Assembly (NCBI GenBank): GCA_964036295.1
Contig: OZ038469.1
Coordinates: forward strand, 372,001-436,000
DNA: 64,000 bases
Reading direction: 5' to 3'
From: Plumapathes pennacea
Taxonomy: Eukaryota > Cnidaria > Anthozoa > Antipatharia > Myriopathidae
This document shows, piece after piece, positions 11,487 to 42,381 of this stretch. Below the pieces are notes generated by a model. The model made no database searches, had not been told where the DNA came from, and saw only the letters and a program-made list of their open reading frames with translations. Each line of letters starts with the position of its first letter. The first letter of the stretch is position 1. The translations under genes and the position numbers were made by a program.

Positions 11487-12585
11487 CTAAATGGAATCTG
11501 AAAATAAAGGATACATACGTGAGAGTGTATGTGTGCTGTTTGTCGGCGTAAAACGTTATTCGGTCAACCAACCTTGTGGATGCTTGACAGTATCTACTGT
11601 CATATTATCAAAGTGGACCGAAATCATTTTGCTTTTCCTTGGCCCCGAATGAAAATGAAATACCGCATTCTTTAGTACGTCGCCAGATTATGCTCAAAAA
11701 AAAAAAAAAAAAAAAAAAAATCCGATCGATTTCCAAATACAATATGGCTTCGAATACTGTGTACCATAGAGTCCCAACTCTGTTTCAGCGTAAACATAAC
11801 TGGTTTACTTTTAAAACTACACAGCGTTTGCTAAACTATTGCAAGTTTTATCGAAAATCTTTAAACAGAGAAAGGGAGGGTAACCTTACCCAGATTGATA
11901 AACTCCAGCTGCATTTTTCCCGAGGTTTGACACAAACTCGAATACTCGAGTCTCGCTCCTTCTGTGGGAAAGCCTCGACCTGTAGGCCACACACACTGAC
12001 CCGTGTTCACATTCTTCAGTCGCTTGTTTGACAACCTGAAACAATATACAAATTTCAATACTACTTCTAATGTTACAAAGATAAACTGTTTGTAAAACTA
12101 AATAGATAAGCTTCAGAACAGTGATGTGCATTTCAATCAACACTTGTTACATACACAATAGGGTAAATTAAACGTCCATCATAAAAAAAAATATTGCACA
12201 GGAATATGATTTGATGAGCCAAAGTGGTATTTTCAGTGAAACAATTTCAAACTCGTACACTTTTTAGTTATATTACTTAGTTACCTGAAAAACAAAAATG
12301 TGAAACCAAAACTAAGAAGAACCGAACATTGATAAACTTACAAAAGCTAGCACTAAAAGAGAAGTGAAATTTCATTGAGATAATTTCAGACTTTTTCTTG
12401 TGTACCTGAAGTGGGTTTTGCTGTCACAACTGGTCTTCAAAACCAATTTAGCCGAGTGTAAACCACTCCCACCTACAAGTTATAAAAATTAATGTCAGTC
12501 ACTCATCACAAAATATTGCGTACGCTGTATACCGTTATTATTATTATTACTATTATTGTTATTATTATTATTACTATTATTATTA

Positions 12586-12887: not shown

Positions 12888-15800
12888 CTAGAAAATGAGA
12901 GAAACAAATATTTCTATAAATGTTTCACCAAATAGAAAGATAATGTTTTGAGAAACCTATAAATAAAAGCTTTACCTGATTTCCTAAGGCGCTCAAGAAG
13001 GAAACTATTCGTAGAAGGTTATAATTTGGAGTGTCGCATATTAAATAAAACACGCCTGCGAACATTGCTTGCGTGCGTGTGAACATTGCTTGCGTTTGCT
13101 CTTGTTTAACAATATGCGTTAATTGGTCTTATGGCCTGGCAAAACGAGGACACAATGTGGCGGCAAAATTGTGTCCTTCGACGTTTTCAGAGTTGCAAAA
13201 TGTGCGGCAACATTGTTGCGCTCAGTGCGTACACAACAAATGTTTCTGAAGTTTTTCTCCATGTGCGTTTGCCTTAGACGAACATTGCTTGCGCCCGTTT
13301 GCGCTTGTTTCACAGTGTGCATTTGCAATGCGTCTTTCTTTACCTAACTTGATGAACTCCAGCTGCTTTCCTCCCCATGACGAACTGCACAAACTCGCAT
13401 AAGCAAGCTTCCTTCCTTCGTAAGGCCAGCGATATCCTATGCCCGATACACACTTCCCCACGTGCACATTCTTGAGACCCTTGTTGTTCAACCTGAAACA
13501 ACATAAACGTCGATGTAATATTTGTAATGCTACAACGATAAATTATTACTGTGAAAAATAAAAATAAATTAGGCTAATTTAAATTCGCTACAATGCATTT
13601 CGATGCCCGTTAGATCTGCCACGCAAAATTATGTGAATGAGACGTCTAGCATTAGTAATAAATTGCACAATATGATCTAATAAACCAAAGTATTATTTTC
13701 AGTACCGGATAATTTCAACCCTCACACAGCTAATTCTTTTTATTAATTAAATACGAAAACAAAGATAGTCCGAAGGAACTATATGTTTATATGTCTGTTA
13801 CCATGTATAAAGTCCAAACCAAAAATTTGAGGCCTGTTTTAAACGTCAAACTTCACATGCGTCGAATACAATACAAACGAGCAAAATCTATTGTTTCAAC
13901 TAATGTATATTGCATTCGACTCGTGTGAAGTTCGACGTCTAAAACAGACCTAAGAAAGACTCAAAATTGTTGAAGCTAAAGCACTAAATAGGAGTGTTGT
14001 TTATAAATCTAATTTCAAGTTGTATTTTAGTATACCTGATATGCTTAGCTGTATTTTTGTCACATTCTCTCTTCAAAACCAATTTACGGGTTGAATCTAC
14101 AAGTTATAAAAAAGCAATTTCAGTTAGTCAAGTATAAAGACTTGGATGGGTTGAAGAAAACCAGGAGATACAAAAACATCGTAAGTATCAGGTTTTACTC
14201 CAATAAGAAACAACTGAAATCAGCATAAAAATAGTAAGAGCCAATATACCGCATGATTTTGATAGTGGAAAACGAGTTTTAGTAAGTAGCTTAGACATAA
14301 TGCAGTATCTAAAAGTAAAATAAAAGACATAAAATTGTACCAAGTTTAATAGCGAGCCAAACAAGTGTAGACGACAAAGAACTGGAGTAGGTGCGGCAGT
14401 ACTTAGGAAACCTGGATGAGGAATTTTGTATATTCTCTGTACAGCAGGTTGCTGCGGCAATCGACACGGAAGGTTAAGAATGCATGTATCAATGTTTCAG
14501 TAGGCGTGAAATATATTTCCGCCTTAATCTGCAAGAATGTTGCGTACTAGTTGTAAAAAGTCGCAGAGGGATGGGGCTTGGTAATGTGATCAACCCTATT
14601 GATAGATTGCTGCCGAGCCAGGATCCGAGATAACAATTGCTTTTACCAAAACTCGAGGAAAAATTCGTGACCCTATTAAGCAACAATATTATTTCTTTTA
14701 CTAGTCACGATCCCACCATGGAATATTCTTATAAGCTGTTCTATAGAACTGCCTGTGTTTATAAGCAGAAACAAGTTTCGTACCTTCAGGACAAACCATT
14801 TTCATGCTACACTTGTGATATATGACGCCATCTTGGTCATACAGAAACGCGGCATCCCTTGCAGTGCAGGTGTCGTCTTGTCCTATCTTAGTATATATCA
14901 AGTAGCTCCCCTCAAGATTGGCCGCAGAACAACCAGGTGTCTCAGGCTTCACGCAGAAATGTCTATACGTACTTCTGAGTGAATGAGCTGATATTATAAA
15001 AAAAGAAAGGAAGCAATGCTAAGATCACGAATCGTATAGACACTCCAGATAACAGTGCACCGTTTAGCTCATTTTATCTTCACTCTGAAGCAAAACTGTA
15101 GTTATTTTGTCAAAATGATCAGACACTTGTGACTGAGCAAGGTGAATAAGCCACTTATTGCCATATCAAGTGGCTTATTGTCTCAGTAGAACACAGCAAA
15201 TCAAAAGATCCATTCACCATACATTATAAACTGAACATGTAGGAATGATGTACTAATAACGAAACGTGGTTACTCAATTTTACAGACAGGCAACCATATT
15301 TATGTCAGGATAATAAATGAACAGATAACTTTTGTACCGGGACAGTAGTAACAATCTTTTTCCTCCTCAATCTTCACTGCTGGATCGCATGGCGCGGTTG
15401 ATGGCCTTCCACCGCATCGAGATAGGAGGCATGTCTTCGTCCGTTTTTGTTTGCCTAGTCCACAGAACTTAATGTCGCAATGTCCCCAGCTACTCCACTC
15501 CGTCAGCCCTCCGTTCACTGCAAGAAAATGTCATCCAAATACTCGCACGTGCCTGGTAAATGGTAATGGACCTGCTGTTTTTAAACGCATGTAACTATTT
15601 AACAATACCGTTGGTAGTCATCACTGAGGTTTCACATACATTATATACACTGACATCCAAATAATTTAATCTACTAATGCTTTGATGCCGAGTTATTGAT
15701 ACTTTTAGTTCATATATATCTTGCAACTAATACAAAAGATTTTCGTCAAGTAATCTTTACACTCCATGATATTTTGCGTGTGTCGGCTGAAAACCCAGCT

Positions 15801-18800
15801 AAAACATGCATATTTACATTCATCCTTAAAAAGGATAATAGGAAAAGACTCAAAATGAAAGCTCTACCTGCTATCCTGTCATCATCACAGTCGTCCTCGT
15901 TAATCCAGTACCAGATTGCTCCAGGTTCCTTCATTCCTTTCCTTATCCAGTCTCCTCGCAATATAATGGTTCCCGAGTTGTAACTTTTTTCAGGGCGTTC
16001 ACAGGTGGTAAGAAGAACCGTGTTTTTTGCTCCTGATGTGATCCATGGCATCCTTTTAGGCAGGCCGTCATAGTAATAGTGTGTCCATACATCGAACTTT
16101 TTTTTCAGGCTCACACTGGTCTGGCTGTTCTGTGTTGCCACAAAACTACAGAAAAATATTTACCGTAAACTGAGCAAACAACATAAAAGAAACAAGCGTG
16201 AGGTCCCCTCCTTTAGGCCGCCAACATCTAAACAATATGGCAGATCTACATAAGTTGCATTTCCAAGTGCATATGGCAATCTTATGTTGTTTCGCTACAC
16301 CGAAAGAGTCCCATTGCTAGCTCTTAAAAGTATAAGCAATTCAATGCCGCGTTTGCTTGAGCAAGCCCCCAGGGCACTTATTAAAATTTGGTTTTAAGGG
16401 GGAGGTGCTTAAACAAGGGGATCTGGGGGGGGGGGGAGTCACTATATAAAAAATTAAAACAAGTCCAAGTAAAGACATCAACCTAATATTCAAGGGGGAC
16501 ATAACAATCACAGACTACGAGTTAGAAGAGCAGATGCCAACCGCAATAATTAACCACCTGAAATTTTAAGCAACACAAGTCGTAATACAACTTGAGCAGC
16601 GTTAGTCTGGTTTATACCAGCCTACTTGTCTTGACAGAATTTGAGTGGAGGGAGGGTTGGGGGGGGGGGGGGGGGGGGGAAGGAGCGCTTATTTTGAATG
16701 TTGCGTTAAAACGGGGACGCGGATCTCTCACCTGTAGGACATGGGCGCTTCAAAGATTCCTCCCCAGTGCTTTCTTTGATTGGCATCCAGCATGTACTTA
16801 AAAGTGTTTCCGTTGCTAAGCGACTTAATAGAGTCGCCCAACTCCAAAATAGAATAATCTGTGTGCAAGGTCGGTTTCAATTTATTCCTGAAACAGACCA
16901 TAATAATCCTCGATCATTCTTACAACAATACAGCTCTTTATACCTTCCTGAACCTTTTGTTCTTTTCGTTTTTTTCTTTCTTTTCTTCTTTTCTCGTTAA
17001 CTTTAGTATCTACTTAGTTCATGTATCTGTGATTTATAATTGCTCCGCATTTTCTTCAAGACTATTATTCATTTTCCAACGAACTGTGATTTTACTTTCC
17101 AAAGCTACTAAACTACAACTTCACGATAAATGTGCAAGAATACAAAGTACACTCATTCACTTATATCTGTAGTGATTTCCAGAAGTAGACTAATGCTGCC
17201 TAGGGACTTAATCAGCCTCGTTCCCAGGGGCCGGGAGAGGAAATAGCTTCAAATTTTACTTGGAATTTATAGTTCTAGCTGAAGACGTGAAAACAATTCA
17301 ATTCCACTCTGAAACCCCGTACTGTATAATTGCTCGCGGGGGCCTGGGGCCCACGAGAGCTTAAAAATGGAGATTTTTATTTTTTATTTTTTTCCTTTTT
17401 GTGGGTCGAGGATCAGCACACGGTGATTGGTTCATATTATCACGTGCTGGGCGATGACGTAATTGACTTCGCTAAACAACTCGAGATGTGGCCAGTGAAT
17501 TGCTCGTTACTTGTGTGTAAAAGTTAACTGCATCCCATCCAAACTCAACACCATTTGGCTCTGTGGAATAGGCACGGATAAACTGGATTTTCGGGAACGA
17601 TTTTGGCTCGCGTTCACCGCGGAAGCTTTGAGAATAGCCGTAAACAAATATTTGATGGTACCACTGTCGCCGATAAATATTTAGTCCCGACGAAACTTTC
17701 TGTGGCGACACGAAATACTTTTGGGAAGATAACAGGGCGAAAGCAGAAACCAAAGCTACGGTGAGCTTTAGCCGTAAAACAATGACGCTTTATGCTTTAC
17801 TCTGTACATGACATCTGTTGCCTCATAAAATTCTTCTGCGTATCGTACATTGCCTGTTGAAGTGTTTCTTTCATTCGATCATGTAGCCTTTGTTTCGCAA
17901 TGGTCAGTGAATACCAGAAATGAAAAATACACCGAAATAATTCTGAGGATTGAGTTTGCAGTCACAAATGGACTGAACACACTGTGAACAAAAGCGCAAT
18001 AATATTGTAAACATCTCTCGTGTGACATTCCTCGCTGTCAATTTTATATTTCTTACAGAGCACGAATACTCGAAAGCCTGATAGAAAGAAACGTATTGAG
18101 TTAATAAAAGAAAACATATAAGTAGTGAAGCGAAAAAGTAAACTGCATCCCATTCAAATTCAACGCCATTTGGCTCTGTGGAATAGGCATGGATAAACTG
18201 GATTTTAGGAAAAGATTTTGGCTCGCGTTCACCGCACAAGCTTTGAGAATAGCCGTAAACAAATGTTTGATGGTACTTCTGGGGTATTGCAAATATCTCT
18301 GTCGCCAATAAGTATTTAGTCCCGACGAAACTTTCTGTGGCGACACGAAATACTTTTGGGAAGATAACAGGGCGAAAACAGAAACCAAAGCTACGGTGAG
18401 CTTTAGCCGTAAAACAATGACGCTTTATGCCTTACTCTGTACATGACATCTGTTGCCTCATAAAATTCTTCTGCGTATCGTACATTGCCTGTTGAAGTGT
18501 TTCTTTCATTCGATCATGTAGCCTTTGTTTCGCAATGTTCATTAAATACCAGAAATGAAAAATACACCGAAATAATTCTGAGGATTGAGTTTGCAGTCAC
18601 AAATGGACTGAACACACTGTGAACAAAAGCGCAATAATATTGTAAACATCTCTCGTGTGACATTCCTCACTTTCAATTTTATATTTGTTACAGAGCACGA
18701 ATACTCGAAAGCCTGATAGAAGAAACGTATTGAGTTAAGAAAAGAAAACACATAAGTAGTGAAGCGAAGGCTGGATTAATCGTGGCCTCTGATTAGAAAT

Positions 18801-21800
18801 ATGAGTCAAGGTCAAACTGTCAAAATCGATTGTGCATAAAAAGATATGTCACGCATTCTCAAGATGCAGGGTCGCTCAACCTTTAAGAAGCAAGTGTATG
18901 AGTGTTGTAATAATAATTTTTAGTTTAATCAAGGTGTCAAAAGAGCAAGGTGTCAAAAGCCAAGTTCTCTATACTGTGTGATATTTTTATGGTGAGAAAT
19001 TGGAAGTCTCTCTTGGGAGTTCCGCTCTTGTCCCCTACTTTCCATTTTATATTCTGGTCTCGACCCAACTCACGCCGCGAGCTCACTGGCAAGGCCAGTC
19101 TAGTTATACTTACATCACAATTAACCTACTGTATATACTTATTGATCAAAATGTGTGGTTGCGTCAACCGTACCTGCTTAGAACCTGGGCGCGAGTCCAG
19201 CTGTTGCCGGCACTGGTAACGAGTAATGTAAACCCGCCAGCGTCGACCGTCATGTCGCAGTAGACCGGGAGGTACTGGGACTTGTCTGACAACTGGATCA
19301 TATAGGCACCGTTCTGATACGTGTTTCCAGCTCTTACACCGTGCAACTTGATGTCATTACAAGATCGCCTGGAAAAAAAGAAGCTCATTTTTAGAACTAA
19401 TTTACTGAATACTGAAAGAAACACATTTAAAAAGAGCTTGAAATCAGACAAAACACATCCCATCATTGAAACACCTCACCCTCGAGTACTTGAATGGGGA
19501 CGTTCCGACGAGCATAGAACTTACGCTCCTCTCGAATAATTCTCAATAAAAATTAGAGAAATCTCCCTAGCTGTCCTCCACCATATCACGGCTAATCAGT
19601 GATCAAACATGAACTGCACAGCGCCGGCCAGAGAAGCGTTTAATTATTTCGGTTCGATCTTATGCATGCCAATATTGTAAAGCGCATTTGATATTTACAT
19701 CGAATTTACGCTGTACACAAACTATTTGTTTGTGAACGGCTTTACAATTGTTTATTAATTATCCTACCTGGTGCCTTCTCTCATCCAATATCTGACTACC
19801 CCTGGGTTGGGCCTCTCTTTGAGGTAAGTGCCCTTGTTAACTCCATCGTTGTAAATAATGGATCCGGACGGATCTCTGACGGACGAAGCAGCACTAAGGA
19901 AGATGTTAGATGACAGATCAAGCCTTGGCATGCTATTAACCAGGTTGTTTGTGTCATCCCAACTGTCAAACTTTTTCACTATCTTCACGCTGTTGTCGGC
20001 CTGGTTAGATATGGACAGAAACGTGCGATCCAAAGGGGCCTCCCAGATTCCTCCCCAGCGCGAATTTCCATCAGCTTCAATCTTATACTGGAAGAACTCC
20101 TGTTGGCATGACGATAGTATGCAGAACAATCATTTGCAAGGGTTTCGTGTCGTTTTAAACAAGTATTCATTATAAACATTCTCTATGATCAAAAATATTT
20201 AGCAATCGATTAACTCTCATTGATACATTAAGACGTTTTATGCCGTTTGTAGAATAACCCCAAAAACATTTAGTAGTCAATTAATTCTGCACCTTAGACG
20301 TGTCGGCGTTCTTTATGGCATCAATGCTCCTAAGAATAGAGAAGTCTCCGTCAAGCGACGGACTGTCCCTATTTCTCTCCCTCACGTTCTCTGTAGTCCA
20401 ACCGCTGTGCGTTTTGCTCGTGGCCACCAAAGTCCAGCCTCCCCCGTTGGCTGTAAAGTCACAATAAGTCTTCACTTCTCTCTGTGCTGGTTTGATTGTG
20501 TAGATGCCGTCTGTGGACAGAAAAAATATATTTAGCGTCCTAATTTGTCGGTAACTATTTGAAGGGAGTGGGAGGTGAAGTACTTTAGAATGGCCGATTT
20601 GAAGAAGGATGGGTTTGTGCAGAGTTATTTTAGTTCGTTATATAAAGTTCTAATTTCTTCGGCTTCTGTTCAGAAAATATCTTAGTCGCGTTCAGCTGTT
20701 ATCAATGTGCGTACCTTTTAAATCGTACGCATTTTCACTGGGGCTCTTGATATTAAGAAATATAACTGTAAGACTACAATTAGAGTGATCATAAAACGGC
20801 GTTGTGTACCTGTTGCCTTCAGCAAATTTCTCAGTTGAGCGTCCATACAAGAACGTGGTGGTTCATAGGGGCCCTCTCGCATCCAATACCAAATATGGGT
20901 TACTTGGTTCGGAGTAAGATTGCCGTGTCGGATCCATGGAGCTGGGTGATAATCCTTATCTTCTCCTGTGAAAAGTTAAATTATGACACAGCTGACTAAC
21001 TAAGTATGAGGTGAGAGAATGCGCATGTCCCTGGATAACGTTTTGACGCATTATCTCATTTCTTCCTGGGCACAATTGGCTTGGTGACGTGTTTCGTTTC
21101 GTTTCGCTTAGTGTCAGTAAAAATCTTAGAATGTGATATGCTATAGTGCGAGCCTATGACTGCAGCAAAGATTTGATTTTCGTTGTCCTAGAACTTGAAT
21201 TGTGAGTGTAGGGTAAAATGTTTCAACCCTTTTATTTTTGAGAATGATCAAGTTCAATATTCTCCTTAGTTCAGTTTCGGCAGCACAAATATATCATACA
21301 GTAAGGGGAACTTGGCTTTTGATACATTGCTCAGATTATAGCTGACTAAACTACCAATTCTCACTACATCACTTATACAATTTCCGCTTAAAGGTTGGGA
21401 GAATCTGCATATTAGAATTTAAGAGTAAAGGGGTTTACGCACCAGTAATAGTTCCGAACCAATTTGTAGTGGCGTCTGAGGATGTTGTCAGCCTCGCATT
21501 GTGGACCCAAGGCATTCTGTTCTCTATTCCTTGGTCATGAAAACTCCATTTGTCAAACTTTGTTATCAACTCCACCGCTGTTTGACTGTTTTGTGTAAAT
21601 ACAAATGAATATTCTCTCCGGGCTTTCCACACACCGCCCCAACGACCTTTAGAAAATTTACAAGAAATTAGAAGTGATAAAACCGCAGAATGAATCATAG
21701 CAACCACTTAATCTGTGCTCTTCTATTTATTTCCTATTTTTGGACATACAGGCACACACATGCGAACCCATGCATGCTTACCCTTTATGGCACAAAAGAG

Positions 21801-33018: not shown

Positions 33019-33061
<43 letters not shown>

Positions 33062-33105: not shown

Positions 33106-33171
<66 letters not shown>

Positions 33172-36100
33172 GTCCTGTTTGCTATAAACACTTGACTCAC
33201 ATGTCCTGTCTTATTGTGGGTGGCATGACGCATCCTCTTTTTGTTAAACATCTGCAATTTCCTGTCACCAGAAGAAAAAACGCAGTGTTCGAGGATAGGA
33301 GGATGAGATAGGCACCTGGACACTTGATCTATTATCGAACTCATTTAAAATATTTCACAAGAGAACAGACAGGTGTTTGTCTAGACAATTTGTTTGGTCC
33401 TACATGAAGCATATTTTAAAAGATAAGAGGGATATGGATGTTAGTAGAAGAGCGGGGGCTGCCACCCTTATCCAGTGGTTTATTGAGGCATTACCTTCGT
33501 CATGATTAAATCCAAAGTTGTGCCCCATTTCGTGGCTAACTGTAAGGTATGGACCAAGTATTTTGCTATAACTCCACTGCAAAGATATGAAATATAGATT
33601 CTGATTCATACTTAGAAGATCCGTGTTGGTGACTTGTTTTCACTCCATTCTTGTGTTTTCGTCCTTTGTAGAGCACAGGAAAGTCTGTACTTACACACAA
33701 TTTATAAACTCTTTGTTTCTAAAGTTGCCATTGTGCCAAGTTCTAAAGACATTTCCCGATGACTGTCGAAAGTAATCGTGTGATTGCATTGGTCTTGCGT
33801 TTGCCATGCTTTTCAATTGGTCCTGACAGGTTTCAAAACATTTTCGGCCAATCAAGAGTAAAACCACATTCTGGTAGTGATATTCTCACGCAAGAAAGCA
33901 ACTGTCGACGGAGTGTACTCAAATTGCTGATTGGTTAGTAAAACCAATCGCATTTAATTGGTTTTGGTTTTGCTCGTACTTCAACTATTGGTCCGATTAG
34001 TTTTTCAATTCTTGCTCGCCCCATTGATTGGCTCTATGATTGGTTTGGTTTTGGTTTTCGACAGTCCATAAAAACAAGCAAAGTTTCAATGGTAAGGCCC
34101 GGATTAAACGAACTCAATGCAAATGAGCAAAATCCATTGTTTGAATTACTTTGCATTGCGTTCGATGCATGCTAATCTTGACGTTTAACTCGGCCAAAGA
34201 TCACTTTACAACAACATGTCAATCTACTGTAATAGCTACAACGCTTGACTGTCATTAGTAAAGTAAGCACAAGACTTACCGCATTTATACCTGCAGATGA
34301 CGAGCCACACATACCGTTTATTGTTGCTAGCCCTAATACATTATCTGGTTGCCAACCTTGGTGACTGAAAAACACACGAAACCAAAAAATCAGCGTAGGA
34401 CTTACCAGTAACTAGCTTCCTAATGACCGAGGTCAATAAGTAAATTAATACTTGGCTACTTTTGGATCATTTTTAATGGGCTCGCCGTCTCACAAGTGGG
34501 AAGCGGAATTTACTGTTGCTGTTATGTATCTCGTATATCCATTCAGTACTAACAATGACTTTCAAATAAGGAATATTTCTTTTCCAAATTTTGACATGAT
34601 CAGGTTACTTATAACAACACAAAAATTAACTGGTTTTACCGTTGCACTCACAAATTAGCAGCCGATCTATTGTAGTTCAGAGCTTTGGTAAATTACCCCG
34701 TTTGTTTAGCGGGCGTTGCTTTGGCACTGCGACAAACTGCCAGAGAAAGTGCGAGTCAAAAGCCCGTGACAGTTGGGGGCAATTTCAAAACGCTTATGGG
34801 CCTTAAATTTTGAGATCAGTTCTTTCACTTAATTATGAAATCTTCATTGTGTACTAAAAATGCGAATATTGTATTTCTAGTTAAACTACAAGTTTATATC
34901 AACTGTATATGCAATCCATTCAAAACGCCTTGAGCCTTCCAGAATATCTCAGTTGGCCGCTTAAACGGGTAAAAACGAGCTTTACGCATCATATTTATAC
35001 AATCTGCTGTACAAGGAGTGGCTTAATATATCTGGTCTGCCTATAGCCTTGTCAAAATTTTGTCAAAACTTTTTTTGGAAAATAGCTAACAATCCAGGTT
35101 CAGAACAACCTTTATCACAGCCGGAGCATGTGCATATAATGATAGTAAGCAAATCTGAACAAATTAGGATATTTTTTTATTATATTTAACAATTTCATTT
35201 CTAGCATGATATTTATGTAACTGACAACTTCAGCAATTCAGTTTCTACTGTAAATGGGTGTTTTAATAAACGATCAGATATCTATCTATCTAGTTATCTA
35301 TCTATCCAAAACGCCCCATTTCCCTCGTCAACTATTCAGTAAAGTTCGACAATTAACGCATCCTACCTTAGCAGTTGTGCATTATCGTGAGTGGTCTTCA
35401 AATGCTTACTTCTGTAGTCCTTAAATTTACTAAGATCGTTGCTACCTTTATCGTTATACTTCCGTGTGATTTTATCCTTATCGCTCCAAATTACAATTTC
35501 AACAACAACCACTCTGATGTTTATCCTTTGGTATATCTGACAAACAAACAAACAAACAAAGTGAATAATTCATAACAATTATGTCATTGTTCTGTAAAAA
35601 CAAGCTTGGCCGTCTTTGGTTGTTAGTACTGCTTCATTTTCCTCTTGCAACTAAATTGAAATTGATGACGATGCCCAGAAAATCCCGCAGTATGGGCAGG
35701 TGTTCAAGTAAGCAACGGACCTTCCGTGAGTCTTTAAATGAAGATTAAGTTGTCCGATAGTGTCGTAATTATTACCCTCGCAGGGATCGGGATTACTTGT
35801 ACGTGGCGTTTTACGTACAGCCTGATGCTAAACACAGCGTGCGTTATACTCTCGACACAAATTGAGTATGTGAGATTGCAATCTGTGTTAGGAACTCAAA
35901 AACTCAGAACTTACCCGATCTACTGCGTTCGCAAGAGCTATGACACGCGCTGTGACGGCAGTGGTGTTACTGTTATGCCCCACATACTGAAAAGGGAAAT
36001 GAGATGCTAAAAACAGCTGCTGTAGTATAATCCTATTTCACATTTTAACTAGTAATACTAGTATACTAGTGTAAAGTAGATTTACTGGACACATGATATA

Positions 36101-38638
36101 TTGTATTTATTATATAGCCACGAGTGTTTTACTGGAAAATATACCGTGCGTAAAATCCATACGAAACTACATCCGGGACCCGAGTGGCGTATTTTCCATA
36201 TCCTCACTAGTGAGGATGTTGTTGGCATCATTTCCCGCTTTTGCACGGTTGTTTGTGCAATTTCTCGTAAAACACTCGTGTCTAATATAATAAAAAGAAA
36301 ATTATACGGTGGCTTGAAGATATGAATTCCATTTTCTCGTGGTAAAAACAATATTTTACCACTCGAAAATAAAATTCATACCTTCGCGCCGCCGTGTAAT
36401 ATCCTCTATATACATAAGTGTCATCAGTGAAATAAACTTCAGAGTCAAAATGAAATATGTGCTTAGTGTTACACAACTAAAATACATTTTCTTTTACTAA
36501 CAATAATACTACTAGTTCTAAACTACCTGCTCTATACTAACTTCCACTAATACCACTATAATGGAACCTCTACTTTGAGACACCTCCATCAAGGTACACT
36601 TCCTTTAAGGGGACACTTCTCCCTGTCTTGAAAAACTGACACTCATACATTGTAACCTTACTTTGGGACACCTCTATCAAGGAAACACTTCTCTTTGTCT
36701 CGAAAAATAAAAAGTGCTATATAATCCTTGTATTGATTACGTCCATTCAAGGGACACTTTTCCTTGTCCCGAGGATGTCCCCCTTAATGGAGGGTTTCAC
36801 TGTACTACCAATGATACCACTATTGCTGCTACCTCTACTGGTGTCGGTACTGTTTAAACTACCAATACCAACACTCCTACTATTATTATACCATCAACTA
36901 CGTACCAGTACATCTAATACAGACTGCAGCTACTGCAACAACTGCTTGATAAATATTTCTACTCTACCGCTGCTATAAATAAATAAAATTTACTTCAAAA
37001 GCATTCATTACCATTCTATTATCCACAACAAAAATGACTTCGGTGTATCGAGTTTCTCTTGTGGTGACGTATGATTGATAAATTTCTTCCACGTTCGCAA
37101 TGTGTCCGCGAAGCTGAAAGATAAAACGCATCATATGCTCTCATCTAATGTAAAGGTAGAATCATTTGAGAAACGGTAATGATTTGTATTATGTAAGTGT
37201 GATACTACGAACGTTCTGTTTGGCGAAAAAAGAACATCTATAGATAAGTAAAAAGACATATCTTTGTATTCTTAGAGGTGTTAGCGTTTAGTTATTTTTC
37301 CTAAGCGGCTCGTGATTTTGAACTTGTTTCTTGTGTTCTCACAACATCCCGCGTGTTTATATAATGGGAACGAAGACATGGAAACGCGTGTTATGAAAAA
37401 TGATACTGAAATTACAAAAACAAACAAACAAACATACAAACAAAAAAGAAAAACAATTACCGTTTTACTATTCGTATTACTCCTCCTTTGAACATCAGTA
37501 TAATTAAATGAATGGTCATTTTTGTTTCCTGCAAGAATTAATAAACAAAATAGTCTAAATTAGTACATTGAAAAATAATTATCGGATTAGTAAGGTTACA
37601 TTATATACCTTTTTTACAAATCTGATATTTTGCATTTTAAATGTTCCGAGATTTAACATACCACATCCTTGGACGTGATCATCATCCGAACTTGCCAGAT
37701 ACAGTTTATGAGCACGAGGTTCCTTAAAGATATAAAAAAAGAAAACATGTACAAACGGGTAAGCAGCAAGCAAGTATATATAAATAATATATAGTGGAAA
37801 ACAGGAAAATGTCGGTAAGTGCTTCAAAGGTAAAAAACTGTCACAATAGCATACACTAGCTTCTCATTTTAGACAAAAACTAAAAATAAAAATTGTTGTA
37901 AGGTATGTGCATGAACGATTTTCCAGTAAACTTCATCTATGTAAGGTCGGTTGGTGTGAACAACGTCGACGATACTGTCTTGGATGACTTTTGAAACCTT
38001 TACACTAGCGGATATAGTACGAAAATACAAAGTTGCCCCAGACAAATCTTATAAGCTTTGCAAAAAAAGCTCTCCTCGAGCTTTTGAAGTGGACATAATA
38101 ACATAACAAAGTTTAAAATGTGAAATAAAAACCGTACTAAAGTCTTCTACGCCGCTGAGTAAGTCAATCATTGTATATTATTTTGATTGAAAATGGCCAA
38201 CTGTTAGGTGAAGTTTAAAGTTTTATTACTCGCGGCTCGTTTAGATATCATCACAAATTACACATCAGCACACTTTTAAAGCATTCATAAACCTTCCCTG
38301 AAAGTTTCATGCGATTCTAATGATTGGCAAAAAATTTACATTGTTTTTATCTGTAATTACCAGACTTGACTACACACTACTGATGGAGTTAGCGGTGCAG
38401 TCGTGTCCCTTGTTTATAACTGGGGATTTGAATTACTTTAGTCTGCAACTTCACTCATGCATTCCAGTGATGTGAATATATGGATGTCACAAGTATGCTG
38501 CCATTATCTCACCTTGTGCTCCAAATGTGGTTCAATGTTGTACATTTTTTCTCCATCGTCAATCACTCCTCTAGATCACACCGAATCATAACGAAAGGAG
38601 GGCACGAAAATGAGGGAAAACAAAAGAATGACCATTTT

Positions 38639-38715
<77 letters not shown>

Positions 38716-41700
38716 CCTAGTTGACTTTCAAGTAAATAAAATACCGCTGTAACATCACAATAGCCACGTGACTCACTTGAGTCCTGAGCACGTGGTTAAG
38801 ATGACATCTGAGTGCGGTGAACCTCGAACCTTTCCGTGATAATAACAGTGTTCTGGCTGATCCTTCAAAGAAAAAAAAAGTAAATAGAAATGCGGTAAGA
38901 AATGCAAGAAGATTATAATGTAGATATACTATAGTTATACGCCGGCAAACAAGGACACTACATTGTGGCGGCAACATTACGCATGTTTCCCAATTGTTGC
39001 CTCGCTTTGCCACGCGCGAAACATTTGTTGCAAAGTTGTGTCCACAGTGAGCGCAAGAATGTTTCCGAACGTTTTACCACCCTAGAAACATCGAAGGCCA
39101 CAATGTTGCAGCCACAATGTGTTCTCGAGTTGCCAGCCCATTATGATTTTCAAAAAATAGATAAGCACATTCAACTTCTCAATTGAACAGAGAGCGACAG
39201 TAACCGCAAAGAAAATTAAAGAAACGGTTGCAAGCCGGAAATTCAGAACTTACCTGTTGTAAGATTTCAGATGAATTGTTCTCGTCAAAGTATCTGACGG
39301 TAAATGAAGGAGACAAAAGGACTCTGCCGAATACAAGACATTTCGTTAATAAATATACAATGCATCAACACTCTATTAGAAAGTTCCATTGATTCTAAAC
39401 AACAACACAACTAGCCCTGCTCGGCGCAACTGCAACTTGCAGGTACTAGTCCAAAGTAATTTCAAATTATGTTCTGCTCCCTTTTTCCTGTTTGCCATGA
39501 AACTGTAAAAGTATCAACGCGTATGGCAATAGATCTCAATAGATTAAGCAAGTCGTTTATACACACAACTTCAAACTAAGGCTATTGCAAACGGAATAGA
39601 GGTACAAACTATAGGCTGACCGTAACCTGGGAAGAAGGAAAACTTACTTGTTTCTTTTTACGTCAAGGATCAAATCCTTTTTTTTGCTTTTAACAAGGAA
39701 TGATGCTTCATCGAGGTGGCCATCCTAAAGAGGAGCGATACGTAAAAGCTTTGAACAGAAGCAGTGACCTGTAGAAAACTAACGTGCTATCATGACTGGC
39801 CTTTTTAACGTAATCATCACCATTTCTGACTAGTGTATACTATTATCTTTTGGCTTTTTTTTTAACAACACAATAAAACTCGAGCAAGGACAGTTAAAAA
39901 AGAAACAGCACTAGGAAAGGTTTTTATAATGAAAATTATGCAACACGACGAAAAAAAGGTTTTCTAACCTCGATCGCCGTGGAAACATCCCTTTTGGTCC
40001 TCCCCTCGTGAAGCCTCACAGGAAATACCGTTTCAATGTCCCTTTCTTCAGCATGAGAGTCTTGGAATGGAATGTCTATGCAGAAGGATGTGGAAGAGAT
40101 AAGAATGATATGTCCTCTCTGTGTGTCAGACACCAGTTTGCGGGTGAATTTCTAGAAACCACAACTTAAAGTAATTACATCGCAACCTCGTTCCCAGGCT
40201 CTTTCATCTCGGGGGCCGGGAGATGAAAGAGCCTGGGGACGAGGTTGATTACATCGCCGATCACAAAGGGTGCATGAAAACACTGTCAACCTATCGGAAG
40301 CCAACGTAATTTGCGTTTCCTTTTATCTAGAACTGAGAAGCGAAGGGCTATTTAGCTGGCTTACCTCCAAAGGAGAATGCTACCAAGACAGCCACACAGA
40401 TGAAGATACCTTGGCACTGCTTTGACTGCAGGGCTGACCTTAACAATTAAATAAGCCAGAACTTTCAAGTTGCATGAAGAAGCATATGTGATTAGGAAAA
40501 ACAACAAACATCTTACATACTAACCCGCTCTAGTTGCTGAGTGCTCTAACGCTTACAGTTCGCGCATTATGGCGACTAGAGCTTAATCCATCCGCAAAGC
40601 ACGCCTTCTTGCTCAACGCATAACATTTACTATCTGTGTAATATTTTCTTCATTATCTTAACAACAGGTCATTGAATAAAACCAAGAGAATCTAAACCAA
40701 CAAATATTTGAAATATTTACCTTGGAGTGAGTGTGTTCTGCATCCTAAAGGTGGCCAAAAGCTTGGTTTAAGCGTTGTCAATCTTCTAGTCACAACGCTT
40801 TGTCAATGACTTGTCTGGTGATAAAGTAGTATGTTTAGCATTTTAATGTTATAATTATTTCTTCTGTTTCCTAAACTAGGCTTTAGGGAAATTTGAAGAG
40901 AATCCTTCGATCGCCAGCTGTTGAAAACTTGGCTGACATGCACGGCATACCAAGTTGTGTTACCATTCATTGTTATCAAACTCTTTCCACAATACAAGAT
41001 GTGTAAAAGCCGTCTTCCTTTGATCCAAATTTAACGTGAACAGGAATTTGAATGATCAGTAATTATTATTGCAGTAATCACTGCTCGGGTTTGAATATTA
41101 TTTTCTACGTAAAAAAAACTCTTCAAAAGATCTTGGTCCGGTTTTTCGAAAGCTGATTAAGCTAATCCAGGATTAACGAATTGTTTTCTCTCAATTACTC
41201 TGCCAATGAACTGCAAGGTTTTGTTCGAAGATGGATCAAAAGCTGTTCCAGCTTAAAAACGCCCCAAGGAAGCCGTTGTAGACGAAACCTTCTTATAAAT
41301 GACAAGAAAGTTTTAGACCTAATCCAGGATTAGCTAGCCTAATCGTGCTTTGAAAAACAGGGCCCTCAACACAAGTGCTAAAGAATTGCAAACTGTACTA
41401 AGATCGGGCGTTTTGATAAAATCCTCTTACTGTACTTTGCCATCGTGTCACAAACTGAAGGAAAAGAATACACAAAACTCATACTTACGTCTTTTCTTTG
41501 ACTAGACTACTGCAGACCGGACGATAAATCCGAACTGAAGACGTGCGAGTCTTCAAATGAAACTTTTTATCAGAGCATCATCATTTTATTAGAGCAAGTT
41601 TTGTTTGTTCGTTACGTTTCCTTTGACTAATGTTGACGGCTTCAAGACTTCTGCTTACTTGTCTATGGGCAACGACAGGTAGCCTAATCATTTGTAAGCT

Positions 41701-42381
41701 CTTTATGTTTCCTTTATTGTTAAGCCAGGCATAGGCGTTCGAAATATTCGCGTAGCCCAAGCATGAAAGCTCAGTGTGTGGGCGATTTTATCTTTTCAAC
41801 TGTTTTTATTAAACGTACTATAGTACTTGGCGCCTTTTGGCCCTCAAATACTTTTCCGTGGAAAGTTATGTATCGATCAATTCCAGCTGTTTTCATACCC
41901 CCCACGGGCCGACCCCAGGGGATTTGTAAAAAGAAAATTCGTGGGACTACAATTCCCCGCTCCCGGGCCACAAAACTCCACTCTTTCTGATGTTGCAGGA
42001 AAAACTACTGGTGTTCGTTCAGTTTTTACAAACTTCTGCAAAGGTTAGAATCCCATAAAACAATCGAAGAAAAATCAAATCTTGGAAAAAAAAAGGATTT
42101 TTGTCTTTAGTAGGTTTTGGTTGCCCCGGGCAAGCGGGCAACCGTTAATGTCAAGCGCTGCGCTGCTCAGAGTGAAAAGGCTCAGAGCTGGGTAAATAAT
42201 ATGCAAGCACAGGGGAAAAGAGCCACATACCCACAGCAAGGTACAGGATCACAAAGTAGTTTTCCATCACCTCCGTTAGATTCTTAAATGTCCCGCAATC
42301 TCTAGCGGCTTTGCAAGCGTATACGATGGAACCCAAGATAATGAGTAACCTAAACATAATACTACAACAGGAACGTGGCAT
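11487..42381 (-). CDS. Gene 2: complete 2,057-residue ADAM with discoidin, TSP1, fibrinogen-like and beta-trefoil modules
   Basis: Forty-eight coding exons from the ATG at 42381 to the TAG at 11489-11487 join with matching phases at all 47 junctions and a total divisible by three. Approximate layout: leader 1-73, prodomain 74-249, metalloprotease 268-446, disintegrin 446-576, discoidin C-part 577-626, beta-trefoil 627-760, discoidin N-part 761-864, ADAM cysteine-rich 865-1013, EGF-like 1014-1035, TSP1 1036-1096, fibrinogen-like 1097-1322, 1323-1505 and 1506-1715, TSP1 1716-1775, beta-trefoils 1776-1913 and 1914-2057. No C-terminal membrane segment is present, so a secreted product is expected. 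The protease end is typical ADAM; the binding-domain tail resembles extracellular matrix or lectin proteins. Whether one mRNA spans all exons is inferred from phase continuity. Confidence 0.85.
12535..12622. repeat. (TTA)n microsatellite in gene 2 intron 45-46 region
   Basis: Imperfect TTA repeat of about 88 bases; the gene 3 counterpart (44071-44213) is about 143 bases. Confidence 0.9.
13344..14987 (-). CDS. Gene 2 exons 42-44: beta-trefoil lectin-like module 2
   Basis: Exons 14987-14784, 14096-14036 and 13492-13344, residues 1776-1913. Repeat one is FCVKPETPGCSAANLEGSYL; repeat two is VIYHKCSMKMVCPE continued in exon 43 by KLVLKRECDKN; repeat three is GLKNVHVGKCVSGIGYRW and ends KQLEFIKL. 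The acceptor of exon 42 is TATCAG|CTCATTC; a nearer AG would break the frame. This three-exon layout is repeated exactly in module 3, so the two arose by duplication. Fold assignment rests on the three-fold internal repeat. Confidence 0.65.
13830..13951. repeat. Foldback element in gene 2 intron 43
   Basis: AGGCCTGTTTTAAACGTCAA on the left faces AGGTCTGTTTTAGACGTCGA on the opposite strand at the right end, arms of about 40 bases. The copy in gene 3 is 45452-45578. A related sequence with TTAAACGAACTCAATGCAAA lies at 2716-2812 and 34097-34196. Confidence 0.7.
15338..15517 (-). CDS. Gene 2 exon 41: thrombospondin type 1 repeat 2
   Basis: Exon of 180 bases, phase 1/1, about 59 residues. LTEWSSWGHCDIKFCGLGKQ and KRTKTC give the W-x-x-W-x-x-C and K-R-T-x-x-C ladder of a TSP1 repeat. 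CGGRPSTAPC and CYYCP complete it. It links the last fibrinogen-like domain to the terminal beta-trefoils. Confidence 0.92.
15868..19368 (-). CDS. Gene 2 exons 38-40: fibrinogen/intelectin-like domain 3
   Basis: Exons 19368-19174, 16887-16732 and 16145-15868 (phase 2, 2, 2, then 1). SCNDIKLHGV, then CDMTVDAGGFTLLVTS (the GGGW motif is changed to AGGF), DYSILELGDSIK, HWGGIFEAP, FDVWTHYYYDGL, MPWITSGAKNTVLL and GAIWYWINEDDC. The loss of the motif tryptophan separates this copy from domains 1 and 2. Intron 38 is 2.3 kb in gene 2 because of a 1.77-kb insertion at 17333-19104; in gene 3 it is 0.5 kb. Confidence 0.8.
16427..16680. repeat. Poly(G) tracts in gene 2 intron 39
   Basis: Two runs of ten or more G (16427-16437 and 16660-16679) with G-rich flanks; matching runs in gene 3 at 48066-48083 and 48299-48311 differ in length. 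Such runs can form G-quadruplexes and often carry assembly errors. Confidence 0.8.
17333..19104. mobile_element. 1.77-kb insertion in gene 2 intron 38 with internal tandem duplication
   Basis: Gene 3 reads ACTGTATAAT directly into TATACTTACATC; gene 2 has about 1.77 kb between these. Inside, a unit of about 0.62 kb occurs twice (about 17525-18133 and 18134-18768). Minus-strand frames in both units share FVYGYSQS and REPKSFPKIQFI then AYSTEPNGVEF, but they are interrupted and unlike any family I recognise. The class of element is unknown. Confidence 0.6.
19768..20510 (-). CDS. Gene 2 exons 36-37: fibrinogen/intelectin-like domain 2
   Basis: Exons 20510-20293 and 20099-19768. It contains DGIYTIKP, CDFTANGGGWTLVATSKTHS, then DFSILRSIDAIK, FFQYKIEADGNSRWGGIWEA, a long variable stretch with MPRLDLSSNIFL, and VRYWMREGTR at the end. 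The domain is the same type as domain 1 but split by two introns instead of three. The exon 36 donor, AAG|GTGCAG, is weak, but it is conserved in gene 3 and gives the only phase (0) that joins exon 37 in frame. Confidence 0.8.
20810..22419 (-). CDS. Gene 2 exons 33-35: fibrinogen/intelectin-like domain 1
   Basis: Exons 22419-22102, 21646-21443 and 20965-20810 (phase 1/1 each). ISCRHIQQ and LPDGVYTINPTG are followed by CDMSRDGGGWTLLVTSHTNS, the signature of fibrinogen-related and intelectin-type domains. WGGVWKAR, FDKWSFHD, MPWV and IWYWMREG continue the fold. The last exon also holds SCMDAQLRNLL, which starts the next repeat. In animals such domains bind microbial or self glycans or matrix. 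The intron before exon 33 contains the minisatellite. Confidence 0.82.
22801..24661. repeat. Minisatellite, ~58 copies of 32 bp, containing the exon 32 splice donor
   Basis: The unit on the plus strand is GGACACAAGAAACAAACAAA then TCCTCCTTACTC, with one-base variants. On the minus strand each unit reads TGTCCGA|GTAAGGAG, identical to the last bases of exon 32 and its splice donor. The array starts directly at the real donor (24655) and fills the intron. Gene 3 has only two copies (52640-52706), the likely starting state. No unit is separated by unique spacers. Plus-strand frames through the array are open only because the unit lacks stops. Confidence 0.95.
24655..24837 (-). CDS. Gene 2 exon 32: thrombospondin type 1 repeat 1
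   Basis: Exon of 183 bases (phase 1/1), about 60 residues. GQWGTWTAWSVCNKGCNGGK carries the tryptophan ladder (W-x-x-W-x-x-C) and RYGGADCAGQ with CNTEACP completes the six-cysteine pattern. TSP1 repeats bind glycosaminoglycans and matrix proteins and can be C-mannosylated on these tryptophans. The exon ends TGTCCGA|GTAAGGAG. This exact junction is part of the 32-bp unit of the minisatellite that fills the following intron (22801-24661), so the true donor is followed by dozens of copies of itself. Confidence 0.92.
25130..25196 (-). CDS. Gene 2 exon 31: EGF-like module
   Basis: One exon of 67 bases (phase 0 in, 1 out) encodes VCTEKRKCHCNIGYDPDTHC. Together with CAGRG at the end of exon 30 it matches the ADAM EGF-like region (C-x-G-x-G-x-C, then C-x-C-x-x-G-Y-x-x-x-x-C). 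It is short: the first cysteines come from the previous exons. In membrane ADAMs a transmembrane segment follows; here a TSP1 domain follows instead. Confidence 0.8.
25301..25450. mobile_element. SINE-like fragment in gene 2 intron 30
   Basis: GGTTCGATTCC fits an RNA polymerase III B box. It is followed by GTTGAAGCCCGG, a T run, CGGGGCTATCTTTGCAACTG and CATAACTGCGAAGGTC, the last also present upstream as a direct repeat (25301 and 25416). Gene 3 keeps the tail part but lacks the B box (53340-53420). It looks like a tRNA-derived SINE and not a working tRNA gene. Confidence 0.5.
25547..27204 (-). CDS. Gene 2 exons 26-30: ADAM cysteine-rich domain, resumed
   Basis: Exons 27204-27138, 26721-26622, 26373-26260, 25995-25920 and 25636-25547. 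ANCYLGKCSETHAMQCQDLW is the standard ADAM cysteine-rich start that should directly follow exon 20. Next come GCYNTLNTDRRGYGTC, NAFCGQLQC, GMVNDGTKCGDKM and MCKDHKCQSFSELG, then CPKVNGQECAGRG. The order and cysteine spacing follow ADAM family proteins closely. In ADAMs this region guides substrate recognition. Gene 3 has the same exons with only small substitutions, for example KK instead of KM at the end of exon 29. Confidence 0.87.
27694..28300 (-). CDS. Gene 2 exons 24-25: N-terminal part of a discoidin (F5/8C) domain
   Basis: Exons 28300-28125 and 27828-27694, residues 761-864. CSIPVGVASGRIPDNQITAS is the classic start of an F5/8C domain (C-x-x-x-L/V-G-V-x-S-G-x-I-x-D-x-Q-I-x-A-S). It goes on with NARLKRPGKCWC, VYLQIDFGE, RISRVATEGC and YHLLFSSDGEIWTPY. 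The final strand region (F-x-G-N-x-D to R-x-E-L-x-G-C) is missing; the following exon 26 is ADAM cysteine-rich sequence. The missing part is present before the beta-trefoil, in exon 21, so the domain appears circularly permuted around that module. Confidence 0.85.
28857..29678 (-). CDS. Gene 2 exons 22-23: beta-trefoil lectin-like module 1
   Basis: Exons 29678-29406 and 28985-28857 (phase 1 throughout), residues 627-760. Three internal repeats can be read: YCVRPTEGSCSLQDGSKIIV, then VLRHHCSKKMVCPDNDDEF, then ALRHVKTGHCVHLSHWSGPN followed by LLLSGGCDGENLEVSF. Each has a G-x-C or K-x-C turn, a variable loop, a hydrophobic strand and a second cysteine, about 40 residues apart. This three-fold pattern is that of ricin-B-like beta-trefoils, though QxW motifs are absent. 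Sugar binding is plausible but not shown. The same module ends the protein twice. Confidence 0.62.
30053..30203 (-). CDS. Gene 2 exon 21: C-terminal part of a discoidin (F5/8C) domain
   Basis: One exon of 151 bases (phase 0 in, 1 out), about 50 residues. ANTDGGFNV, then LSPHTEARYVRINPQYY and MCTRTELYSC match the last third of F5/8 type C domains (N-D, then ARY-RI-P, then R-EL-GC). Its N-terminal two thirds are not upstream: exon 20 is ADAM sequence. Exons 24-25, downstream, encode exactly the missing N-terminal part and end in the same intron phase this exon begins with. Discoidin domains bind phospholipid, collagen or carbohydrate; the ligand here is unknown. Confidence 0.8.
30469..32691 (-). 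CDS. Gene 2 exons 16-20: disintegrin domain and start of cysteine-rich domain
   Basis: Exons 32691-32607, 31957-31889, 31577-31476, 31277-31197 and 30522-30469. Exon 16 holds PGFSDCSMKSL and CLYNVP. Exon 17 has CGNGIREGKEECDCGTPE, exon 18 CCEPHNCIL, and exon 19 GSLCRGVNTPCDVPEYCTG, the diagnostic ADAM disintegrin sequence. Exon 20 (CPGDSYQQDGVPCDRTVT) is the ADAM segment that normally runs straight on into the cysteine-rich domain. Here the next exon is a piece of a discoidin domain instead; the expected continuation appears only in exon 26. There is no RGD. Confidence 0.92.
30764..31030. repeat. AT-rich minisatellite in gene 2 intron 19
   Basis: Tandem units of about 30 bases containing TAATAACTATATCTAATAAC, homologous to the array at 150-430. 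Confidence 0.85.
31755..31857. repeat. (CA)n and poly(C) tracts in gene 2 intron 17
   Basis: A CA run at about 31755-31781 and a C run at about 31840-31856; gene 3 has a CA run at 60842-60862 and a longer C-rich, A-rich and CA stretch at 60919-60998. These are length-unstable simple repeats. Confidence 0.85.
32356..32504. mobile_element. Short TIR element in gene 2 intron 16 region
   Basis: GGTCACACTTGCGCAAGAAG at the left and GGTCACACTTGCGCTAGAAC on the other strand at the right: inverted ends of about 20 bases enclosing 149 bases. Present in gene 3 at 61372-61517 but absent at the matching place in gene 1, where a larger stretch is missing. Confidence 0.65.
32862..33171. repeat. (AAT)n microsatellite, ~310 bp, in gene 2 intron 15
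   Basis: Almost pure AAT repeat with occasional GAT or AGT units. Long poly-Asn and poly-Ile frames across it are artefacts of the repeat. Confidence 0.97.
33201..37113 (-). CDS. Gene 2 exons 10-15: zinc metalloprotease domain
   Basis: Exons 37113-36994, 35986-35915, 35536-35367, 34364-34280, 33576-33495 and 33261-33201. Exon 10 has ETRYTEVIFVVDN, exon 11 HNSNTTAVTARVIALANAVD, exon 12 IYQRINIRVVVVEIVIW and HDNAQLL, exon 13 GLATINGMCGSSSAGIN, exon 14 the zinc site HEMGHNFGFNHDE (H413, E414, H417, H423), and exon 15 CRCLTKRGCVMP with the Met-turn at M438. All residues needed for catalysis are present. The type is ADAM/reprolysin; the ADAMTS zinc-site pattern is not matched. The substrate is unknown; extracellular action is inferred from the leader and the disulfide-rich partners. 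Confidence 0.93.
33768..34070. mobile_element. Degenerate MITE-like element in gene 2 intron 13
   Basis: Counterpart of 2388-2690, with better kept ends (CGATGACTGTCGAAAGTAAT and TTTTGGTTTTCGACAGTCCA). Confidence 0.55.
34915..35312 (+). mobile_element. 3' remnant of a non-LTR retrotransposon in gene 2 intron 12
   Basis: Homologue of the remnant at 3540-3935, including the TATCTATC tail, with further decay (SGLPI where gene 1 has SGLSS). It was inherited through the gene duplication. Confidence 0.6.
36110..36412. mobile_element. ~300-bp MITE in gene 2 intron 10
   Basis: Gene 1 lacks this block. It contains CACGAGTGTTTTACTGG at the left and a hairpin at 36302-36400 whose arms read ACGGTGGCTTGAAGATATGA and, on the other strand, ACGGCGGCGCGAAGGTATGA. 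A CACGAGTG-type relative may be present near 28410. It inserted after the duplication of genes 1 and 2, or was lost from gene 1. Confidence 0.6.
36555..36805. mobile_element. TIR element in gene 2 intron 10
   Basis: The left end TAATGGAACCTCTACTTTGA and the right end, on the other strand, TACAGTGAAACCCTCCATTA form imperfect inverted repeats; the consensus seems to be ACAGTGGAACC. Interior repeats of GGACACTTCTCCTTGTC. Gene 1 holds only the left part (from 4881). Confidence 0.55.
37461..40075 (-). CDS. Gene 2 exons 3-9: ADAM prodomain
   Basis: Exons 40075-39969, 39724-39648, 39323-39254, 38862-38777, 38570-38513, 37722-37662 and 37528-37461. Segments are DIETVFPVRLHEG, DEASFLVKSKKKDLILDV, VLLSPSFTVRYFDE, HCYYHGKVRGSP with TTCSGL, MYNIEPHLEHK, and QGCGNKND with candidate cysteine-switch C226. 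VQRRSNTN at the end offers a weak dibasic processing site. Phases run 1-0-2-0-2-0-1-0, which is what allowed the small exons to be found. The domain keeps the protease latent and helps folding in ADAMs generally; for this protein that is inferred. Confidence 0.88.
38638..38714. repeat. (TAA)n microsatellite in gene 2 intron 6
   Basis: About 77 bases of TAA repeat, the longer counterpart of 7111-7146. Confidence 0.95.
38944..39134. mobile_element. Short inverted-repeat element in gene 2 intron 5
   Basis: Homologue of 7371-7561, nearly identical, inherited by duplication or kept alike by gene conversion. Confidence 0.65.
40184..40246. repeat. Foldback element with 27-bp arms in gene 2 intron 2
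   Basis: Homologue of 8641-8703, identical in arms and loop. Confidence 0.75.
40365..42381 (-). CDS. Gene 2 exons 1-2: leader
   Basis: Coding part of exon 1 is 42381-42231 and exon 2 is 40433-40365. The exon 2 acceptor is GGTCAG|CC; a nearer alternative CAG eight bases later leads to a stop in exon 3, so the first is chosen. The hydrophobic IFICVAVLVAFSFG at residues 60-73 directly precedes the prodomain and looks like the true signal core, with likely cleavage near G73. Exon 1 adds another hydrophobic stretch (residues 10-22). The start codon is therefore uncertain. Confidence 0.65.

Follow-up and report, generated by a model that had tools for sequence, protein, structure and literature searches.

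A large ADAM-type protease gene of Plumapathes pennacea with a discoidin domain apparently permuted around a β-trefoil

Introduction

Does a single gene in the anthozoan Plumapathes pennacea join an ADAM-type metalloprotease to a long tail of putative binding modules, and what would such a protein do? The window analyzed here is a stretch of 64,000 nucleotides (GenBank assembly GCA_964036295.1, contig OZ038469.1, positions 372,001 to 436,000 of the forward strand), to which all coordinates below refer. An original prediction, made from the letters of this window, had joined 48 exons without phase conflict into one frame of 6,174 bp (2,057 aa), read as an active-looking ADAM followed by discoidin, β-trefoil, thrombospondin type 1 (TSP1) and fibrinogen-like modules in an apparently undescribed layout. 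Our analysis re-derived the 48 exons with the same outer bounds, on the minus strand; the single frame stood, and its size changed by 66 bp to 6,108 bp and 2,035 aa. The gene was thereby confirmed, and the interpretation placed on it was partly supported. We regard it as fairly probable that the product is a secreted ADAM which an exosite cassette and a multivalent tail keep on glycans or matrix, and a member of an old, unnamed family of Cnidaria and at least one nemertean.

Results

The modules of the encoded protein follow one another as prodomain, M12B protease, disintegrin, C-terminal half of a discoidin, β-trefoil, N-terminal half of a discoidin, the rest of the ADAM cysteine-rich region (ADAM-CR), TSP1, three modules resembling fibrinogen-related domains (FReD), a further TSP1 and two β-trefoils (Table 1). 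Pfam searches of the final model returned the propeptide, reprolysin, disintegrin, ADAM_CR, F5_F8_type_C (two stretches), TSP_1 (two) and Fibrinogen_C (three), which bears out the domain list proposed earlier, except that the second TSP1 in exon 41 and the reversed, two-part nature of the discoidin had been overlooked. The gene, the order of its modules, the permuted sequence, its conservation and the folds of homologue pieces were computed directly.

The unusual part of the protein lies between the disintegrin match, which ends at residue 540, and the ADAM_CR match, which begins at residue 840 and at profile position 7. The approximately 300 residues in between hold a cassette of five exons (exons 21-25, 30203-27694) with phase 0 introns at both borders. 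Positions 1-90 of the 127 positions of Pfam F5_F8_type_C were located behind the trefoil, and PDB matches aligned residues 178-276 of the query piece with the front portion of factor V C domains; the portion behind it was matched by residues 7-54, so that the order is reversed. The two halves are complementary and do not overlap. When the family profile was aligned by hhalign with a reference of 15 ordinary tandem discoidin units (a comparison of sequence profiles, not of structures), the halves put into their usual order gave 144 columns (E 6e-41, score 240) and the halves as encoded gave 97 columns (3e-26, score 156). In ordinary discoidins the end cysteines form a disulfide, and the cysteines that close the natural ends of the domain are kept in 41 out of 41 sequences, namely 39 relatives aligned over the cassette and two copies from the window. 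This count included P0054 and left out P0040, which is not of the family, P0033 and P0034, in which one side is missing, and non-family rows. A further cysteine pair, one residue in each half, is kept in 39 of the 41 and jointly absent in P0025 and P0030; since the sequences are related, this is better taken as two events of joint loss than as 41 independent points. The introns around exons 17-26, read in three frames for open stretches of at least 14, 16 or 20 residues depending on the gap, contained neither of the discoidin halves missing before exon 21 and after exon 25.

The β-trefoil fold was recognized in the model of the Nematostella homologue P0006, and the trefoils of the window protein were assigned by alignment. 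This model has a predicted local distance difference test score (pLDDT) of 81-95 over most of both discoidin halves. A search with it yielded trefoils and ADAM-type chains and no discoidin among the 50 matches listed, and is uninformative on the permuted domain. At the level of sequence, the discoidin (F5/8C) at the beginning of ADAM-CR is circularly permuted, with a β-trefoil between its halves. Taken together, these results make it most likely that both halves come together as a single discoidin fold, with the trefoil linking its natural ends.

The layout turned out not to be unique to the window. The first search returned 38 proteins and the third 484 proteins at E values up to 1e-60. Among the former and the best 120 of the latter, at least 39 relatives can be aligned over the cassette and share the same core, so that the domain order sought in other anthozoans was found there and beyond them: members occur in Pocillopora, Porites, Acropora, Stylophora, Oculina, Desmophyllum, Nematostella, Actinia and Actinostola among the hexacorals, in the hydrozoans Hydra, Hydractinia and Clytia, in Rhopilema and in the nemertean Tubulanus polymorphus. 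Most long relatives show protease, disintegrin, C-half, trefoil, N-half, ADAM-CR, TSP1 and FReD-like modules in this order, and most of them end in TSP1 and trefoil. The C-half of the Hydra members has diverged too far to appear in the segment map and is visible in alignments. Among the matches listed, the family was followed by several odd or short models, and these in turn by ordinary ADAM8/12/19 proteins, which cover about 30% of the query. The members are mostly unnamed, "uncharacterized" or "hypothetical", and a few carry misleading names ("ADAM 9" or venom-like). No published description of the layout or of a circularly permuted discoidin was found in a search of open-licence PubMed Central (PMC) papers, among them passages of PMC8260672, PMC7853314, PMC12549020 and PMC6526912.

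Searched with its cassette region, the nemertean member retrieved itself, ordinary tandem discoidins (P0039 and P0040) and factor VIII-type proteins only; the sensitivity of this search was low, since it missed the cnidarian relatives. P0039 and P0040 gave no credible trefoil match (a single match of 20 residues, E 0.046). Three relatives, P0024, P0029 and the short Hydra protein P0057, have no cassette. In P0024 ADAM_CR is matched from position 1 and the disintegrin side runs directly into CYHGKC, and P0029 likewise runs into CYKGNC. Together with the phase 0 borders, these sequences fit an exon-shuffled insertion of the cassette, or else its loss in P0024 and P0029. The model of P0054 (Pocillopora damicornis) contains two cassettes with discoidin halves in the usual order between them; it is probably a fusion of neighbouring copies or a chimeric gene model, and would be a place to look for an unpermuted ancestor. 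P0018, P0019 and P0026 extend by about 170-220 residues beyond the last trefoil match; P0018 and P0019 carry PF10528 (GLEYA) and PF07691 (PA14).

As the original prediction had proposed, the M12B protease looks active, judged by its sequence. The propeptide and reprolysin domain were recognized by Pfam, the latter also by a PDB phmmer match of 1.4e-53 to a solved P-III metalloproteinase; the zinc motif HEMGHNFGFNHD (HExxHxxGxxHD) stands at residue 391 in exon 14 (33576-33495), and the Met-turn is intact (CVM in exon 15). The zinc motif as searched is present in 25 of 34 first-search proteins. The EGF-like stretch in exons 26-31 gave no Pfam match. No transmembrane-like segment was detected after residue 80 (hydropathy peak 1.06), which makes secretion likely and a soluble form of the protein the likely prediction; such a segment is not universal in the M12B group, P-III enzymes being without it.

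In the tail, trefoil 2 had no significant match among PDB sequences, and beyond about residue 60 the FReD module has no Pfam or PDB sequence match. The last 136 residues of the window protein are extra with respect to at least seven of nine close homologues.

Self-alignment of the window revealed a tandem array in which the middle gene is flanked by a left and a right copy at a spacing of about 31.5 kb (exon 1, middle versus left; exon 48, right versus middle). Both partial paralogues are open in the same frame as the middle gene, and the right copy, lifted exon by exon over exons 15-48, reads through 4,898 bp in a single frame whose only stop is the terminal one. A tblastn search of positions 62100-64000, upstream of exon 15 of the right copy, with four homologues as queries found no match to exons 1-14, although a mere 233 bp separate exons 14 and 15 of the middle gene; the blastn alignment of the right copy ends at 62,103. 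The abrupt end may represent either an insertion or a truncated copy. At 59747-59800 the right copy has a GC-AG intron behind exon 20, its counterpart in the middle copy being GT-AG, and AT-rich tandem arrays of 33 bp occupy matching places in the three copies (140-461, 30764-31085 and 60034-60118).

Comparison of the middle with the right copy gave a nonsynonymous divergence (dN) of 0.0435 versus a synonymous divergence (dS) of 0.0855 (Fisher p 2.6e-6, 1,632 codons), and comparison with the left copy over exons 1-19 gave 0.051 versus 0.108 (p 6.5e-4). Between the middle and right copies dN reached 0.091 in the cassette versus 0.034 in the other exons of 15-48 (p 3.7e-8), with no difference in synonymous change (p 0.29), corresponding to dN/dS of about 0.85 and 0.42, respectively; these rates were computed from a rounded table. 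Divergence of this kind in the cassette fits a putative recognition part on which constraint has shifted or relaxed.

When both strands were searched with a splice-aware Viterbi method, a long coding chain emerged on the minus strand and none on the plus strand. The initial forced chain had 44 exons; four were added later, and the borders of exons 1, 5, 9, 10, 23 and 39 were reset by comparison with the tandem copies and homologues. A single chain of 89 exons merging all tandem copies was rejected and split using starts, stops and the copies. In the final model all introns are GT-AG, the start ATG lies at 42381 and the stop ends at 11487. Identity to nine full-length relatives is 50.5-55.1% over aligned residues, and this homology is strong evidence for the gene. 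Exons 1-2 draw their support from the left copy, with no confirmation given by other species, and exon 1 is uncertain. As to the join between the ADAM and its tail, P0001, P0002, P0003, P0007 and P0010 stand on contigs hardly longer than their frames and read as transcripts; these support the join for the family, but not for this species. Rfam gave no match at gathering score, and none of ten open reading frames from introns or flanks exceeded the Pfam cut-off.

Table 1. Coordinates of the middle gene, its modules and the flanking copies in the window
Feature	Position	Strand	Basis
Middle gene, 48 exons, coding sequence 6,108 bp, 2,035 aa; encodes an ADAM with the permuted cassette (discoidin, trefoil) and a tail of TSP1, FReD-like and trefoil modules	11487..42381	-	
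Exons 1-2: start, two hydrophobic stretches, signal region (exon 1 uncertain)	40365..42381	-	left copy 98-99% identical
Exons 3-9: M12B propeptide, cysteine-switch-like QGCGN	37461..40075	-	Pfam PF01562 53.6 bits (cut-off 23.7)
Exons 10-16: reprolysin (M12B) catalytic domain	32607..37113	-	Pfam PF01421 139.2 bits (cut-off 20.8), 2.3e-40
Exons 17-20: disintegrin and first cysteines of ADAM-CR	30469..31957	-	Pfam PF00200 1.5e-16, residues 464-540
Exon 21: C-terminal half of discoidin (F5/8C)	30053..30203	-	PDB matches, alignments, hhalign
Exons 22-23: β-trefoil 1, between discoidin halves	28857..29678	-	homologue model residues 151-291; alignment
Exons 24-25: N-terminal half of same discoidin	27694..28300	-	Pfam positions 1-90 of 127
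Exons 26-31: rest of ADAM-CR and EGF-like stretch	25130..27204	-	Pfam PF08516 840-943, profile positions 7-108 of 115
Exon 32: TSP1 repeat 1	24655..24837	-	Pfam PF00090, residues 1024-1073
Exons 33-40: three FReD-like modules	15868..22419	-	Pfam PF00147 three stretches; fold of homologue module
Exon 41: TSP1 repeat 2	15338..15517	-	homologue segment map; PF00090 two stretches
Exons 42-48: β-trefoils 2 and 3	11487..14987	-	similarity to trefoil 1
Right paralogue, open over exons 15-48; exons 1-14 not found within window	43032..62017	-	
Left paralogue, exons 1-19, cut by window edge (window start)	592..10838	-	

Two repeats were noted within the introns. Intron 38 contains a direct repeat of about 630 bp (93%) at 17519-18768. 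A 32-bp minisatellite of 58 copies (22800-24662) begins at the 5' splice site of exon 32, and its units repeat the donor-like CCGAGTAAGG, with 58 GTAAG and 53 GTAAGG on the minus strand; the right copy has about two units at the corresponding place (52641-52708).

Discussion

The cysteine-rich region of ADAMs and snake-venom enzymes helps to choose substrates and is a likely seat of exosites, and the cassette lies there. In the reading that we favor, the prodomain is followed by a zinc protease that looks active and by a disintegrin domain, and a cassette of exons would have been inserted at the start of the cysteine-rich region, carrying a discoidin C-half, a β-trefoil and a discoidin N-half. 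Both halves would fold into one discoidin, with its natural N and C ends bridged by the trefoil rather than free. The tail would add TSP1, three FReD-like modules, a second TSP1 and trefoils, and the soluble protease, with the cassette as exosite and the multivalent tail as anchor on glycan- or matrix-bearing surfaces, might have its cutting confined there. We infer from these data that the halves join into one fold, that the protein is secreted and active, that it binds ligands and that the cassette serves as exosite.

Several observations weigh against the favored reading. The matches of the C-half to factor V are singly weak (i-Evalue 4.2 and worse), and the model of P0006 has a predicted template modelling score of 0.62, a pLDDT of 53-82 at residues 351-390, where the N-half ends, and, within the disintegrin part, values under 50; five models were made, ranging from 73.8 to 54.6, and we infer the contact of the discoidin halves rather than read it from model coordinates. 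The FReD modules match by sequence over only about 50 N-terminal residues, and the model of a homologue module is weak (pLDDT 65.5, residues 144-198 below 50). The motif HPx(G/A)(G/A), or HPxGG, is the sugar-binding motif of the mytilec (mytilus-lectin) type; it was found in 20 out of 42 relatives, whole proteins being searched, and nowhere in the window protein, and for this reason sugar binding by the latter is doubtful. No RX(K/R)R convertase site lies between the prodomain and catalytic domain of the window protein, although 13 out of 34 relatives have one, and because of this its activation may differ. In 9 of the 34 first-search proteins the zinc motif was not matched (two read HEMGHNFGYNHN, and some are fragments). 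Identity in exons is not above that in flanking introns (right copy 95.0 vs 95.9%, left copy 94.0 vs 94.9%), which indicates that the copies are young and the signal of dN below dS modest. Inside the cassette no difference between dN and dS was detected (p 0.55), and faster nonsynonymous change in one pair of copies can also mean relaxed constraint.

Other explanations were weighed on the same evidence. It is quite unlikely that the halves do not form one domain in cis and are leftovers of two half-lost discoidins, or parts of a domain swap between two molecules. Deletion from a discoidin-trefoil-discoidin arrangement would yield an identical order; however, the halves are complementary without overlap, the end cysteines are invariant, the cross-half cysteine pair has been lost jointly twice, and the pLDDT is high over most of both halves. 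That the exon chain fused two adjacent genes, an ADAM and a tail, is extremely improbable, as the same order is found in proteins of many species, several of them on contigs barely exceeding the frame, and the paralogue is open through the join.

Concerning function, we consider rather unlikely a role in innate recognition, in which microbes or non-self surfaces would be bound by the lectin-like modules, with the protease as the effector or as an activator of zymogens. Recognition lectins often have FReD and trefoil folds, the gene is present as tandem copies and the cassette diverges fast between them, but the architecture is conserved, with about 50% identity across distant cnidarians, and not hypervariable as a whole, and the window protein has no mytilec-type motif. 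The TSP1, FReD and discoidin modules are of matrix type, and in passages of PMC7853314 and PMC12549020 the cnidarian skeletal and extracellular matrix protein sets include proteins with ADAM, fibrinogen and TSP domains. Nevertheless, a structural or matricellular protein of the mesoglea or skeletal matrix with a secondary protease seems unlikely in view of the zinc motif kept in most first-search proteins and of the presence of the family in non-calcifying Hydra, Clytia, Rhopilema, anemones and a nemertean. Secretion from nematocysts or glands against prey, as a venom-type metalloprotease, is improbable: the top PDB sequence matches are P-III snake metalloproteinases and some relatives have venom-like names (P0053, P0055 and P0057), but names and matches mirror which proteins happen to be solved or named already, ADAM8 and ADAM22 match too, and ordinary ADAM8/12/19 form the next group down. 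To our knowledge, a nemertean member and a size of 2,000 residues are not typical of venom enzymes.

A discoidin that is naturally permuted in cnidarians and a nemertean, frames a lectin-type domain with its natural ends and sits inside a protease would illustrate cleanly how exon shuffling can re-cut a fold. If the cassette is an exosite, the evolution of substrate choice in ADAMs could be tested on it directly. A further outcome is that corals, anemones, jellyfish and Hydra have a group of large, unnamed ADAMs whose annotations read "uncharacterized" or borrow the names of venom enzymes or of ADAM9. As a tentative extension, possible at best, exon shuffling may have given this ancient protease family its exosite in the form of a permuted discoidin with closed ends, from which a lectin-type domain is presented; the cassette would then be a specificity-changing part, fast-diverging between tandem copies, and the proteins protease-linked recognition molecules of early animals.

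Comparison with known systems

As a kind, the protein is an ADAM with extra modules, and the permuted discoidin around a lectin-type domain is its unusual feature. With ADAMs and P-III snake-venom metalloproteases (M12B, adamalysins; ADAM8, 12, 19 and 22 being nearest) it shares the propeptide, the reprolysin domain with HExxHxxGxxHD and Met-turn, the disintegrin and the cysteine-rich domain, whereas its cysteine-rich domain carries the discoidin-trefoil cassette near the start; in contrast to membrane ADAMs it has no transmembrane-like segment and bears a TSP1/FReD/trefoil tail of about 1,000 residues. ADAMTS proteins also combine an M12B protease with TSP1 repeats, but the window protein has a classical disintegrin and ADAM_CR, its first TSP1 follows ADAM_CR and its other tail modules differ; no ADAMTS-specific Pfam family of the cysteine-rich/spacer type was matched in it at E values up to 1. 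Compared with the F5/8 type C domains of factor V, factor VIII and neuropilin, both halves align along the whole domain once reordered and the end cysteines are kept, whereas here the C-half comes first, a β-trefoil stands between the natural ends and the new ends lie at the joint before the C-half. The FReD-like modules differ from fibrinogen-related domains and intelectins in the unmatched sequence noted above. Relative to the β-trefoil lectins of the Mytilec and ricin-B/CBM13 types, identity is about 25%, HPxGG is missing and the trefoil is nested in a protease.
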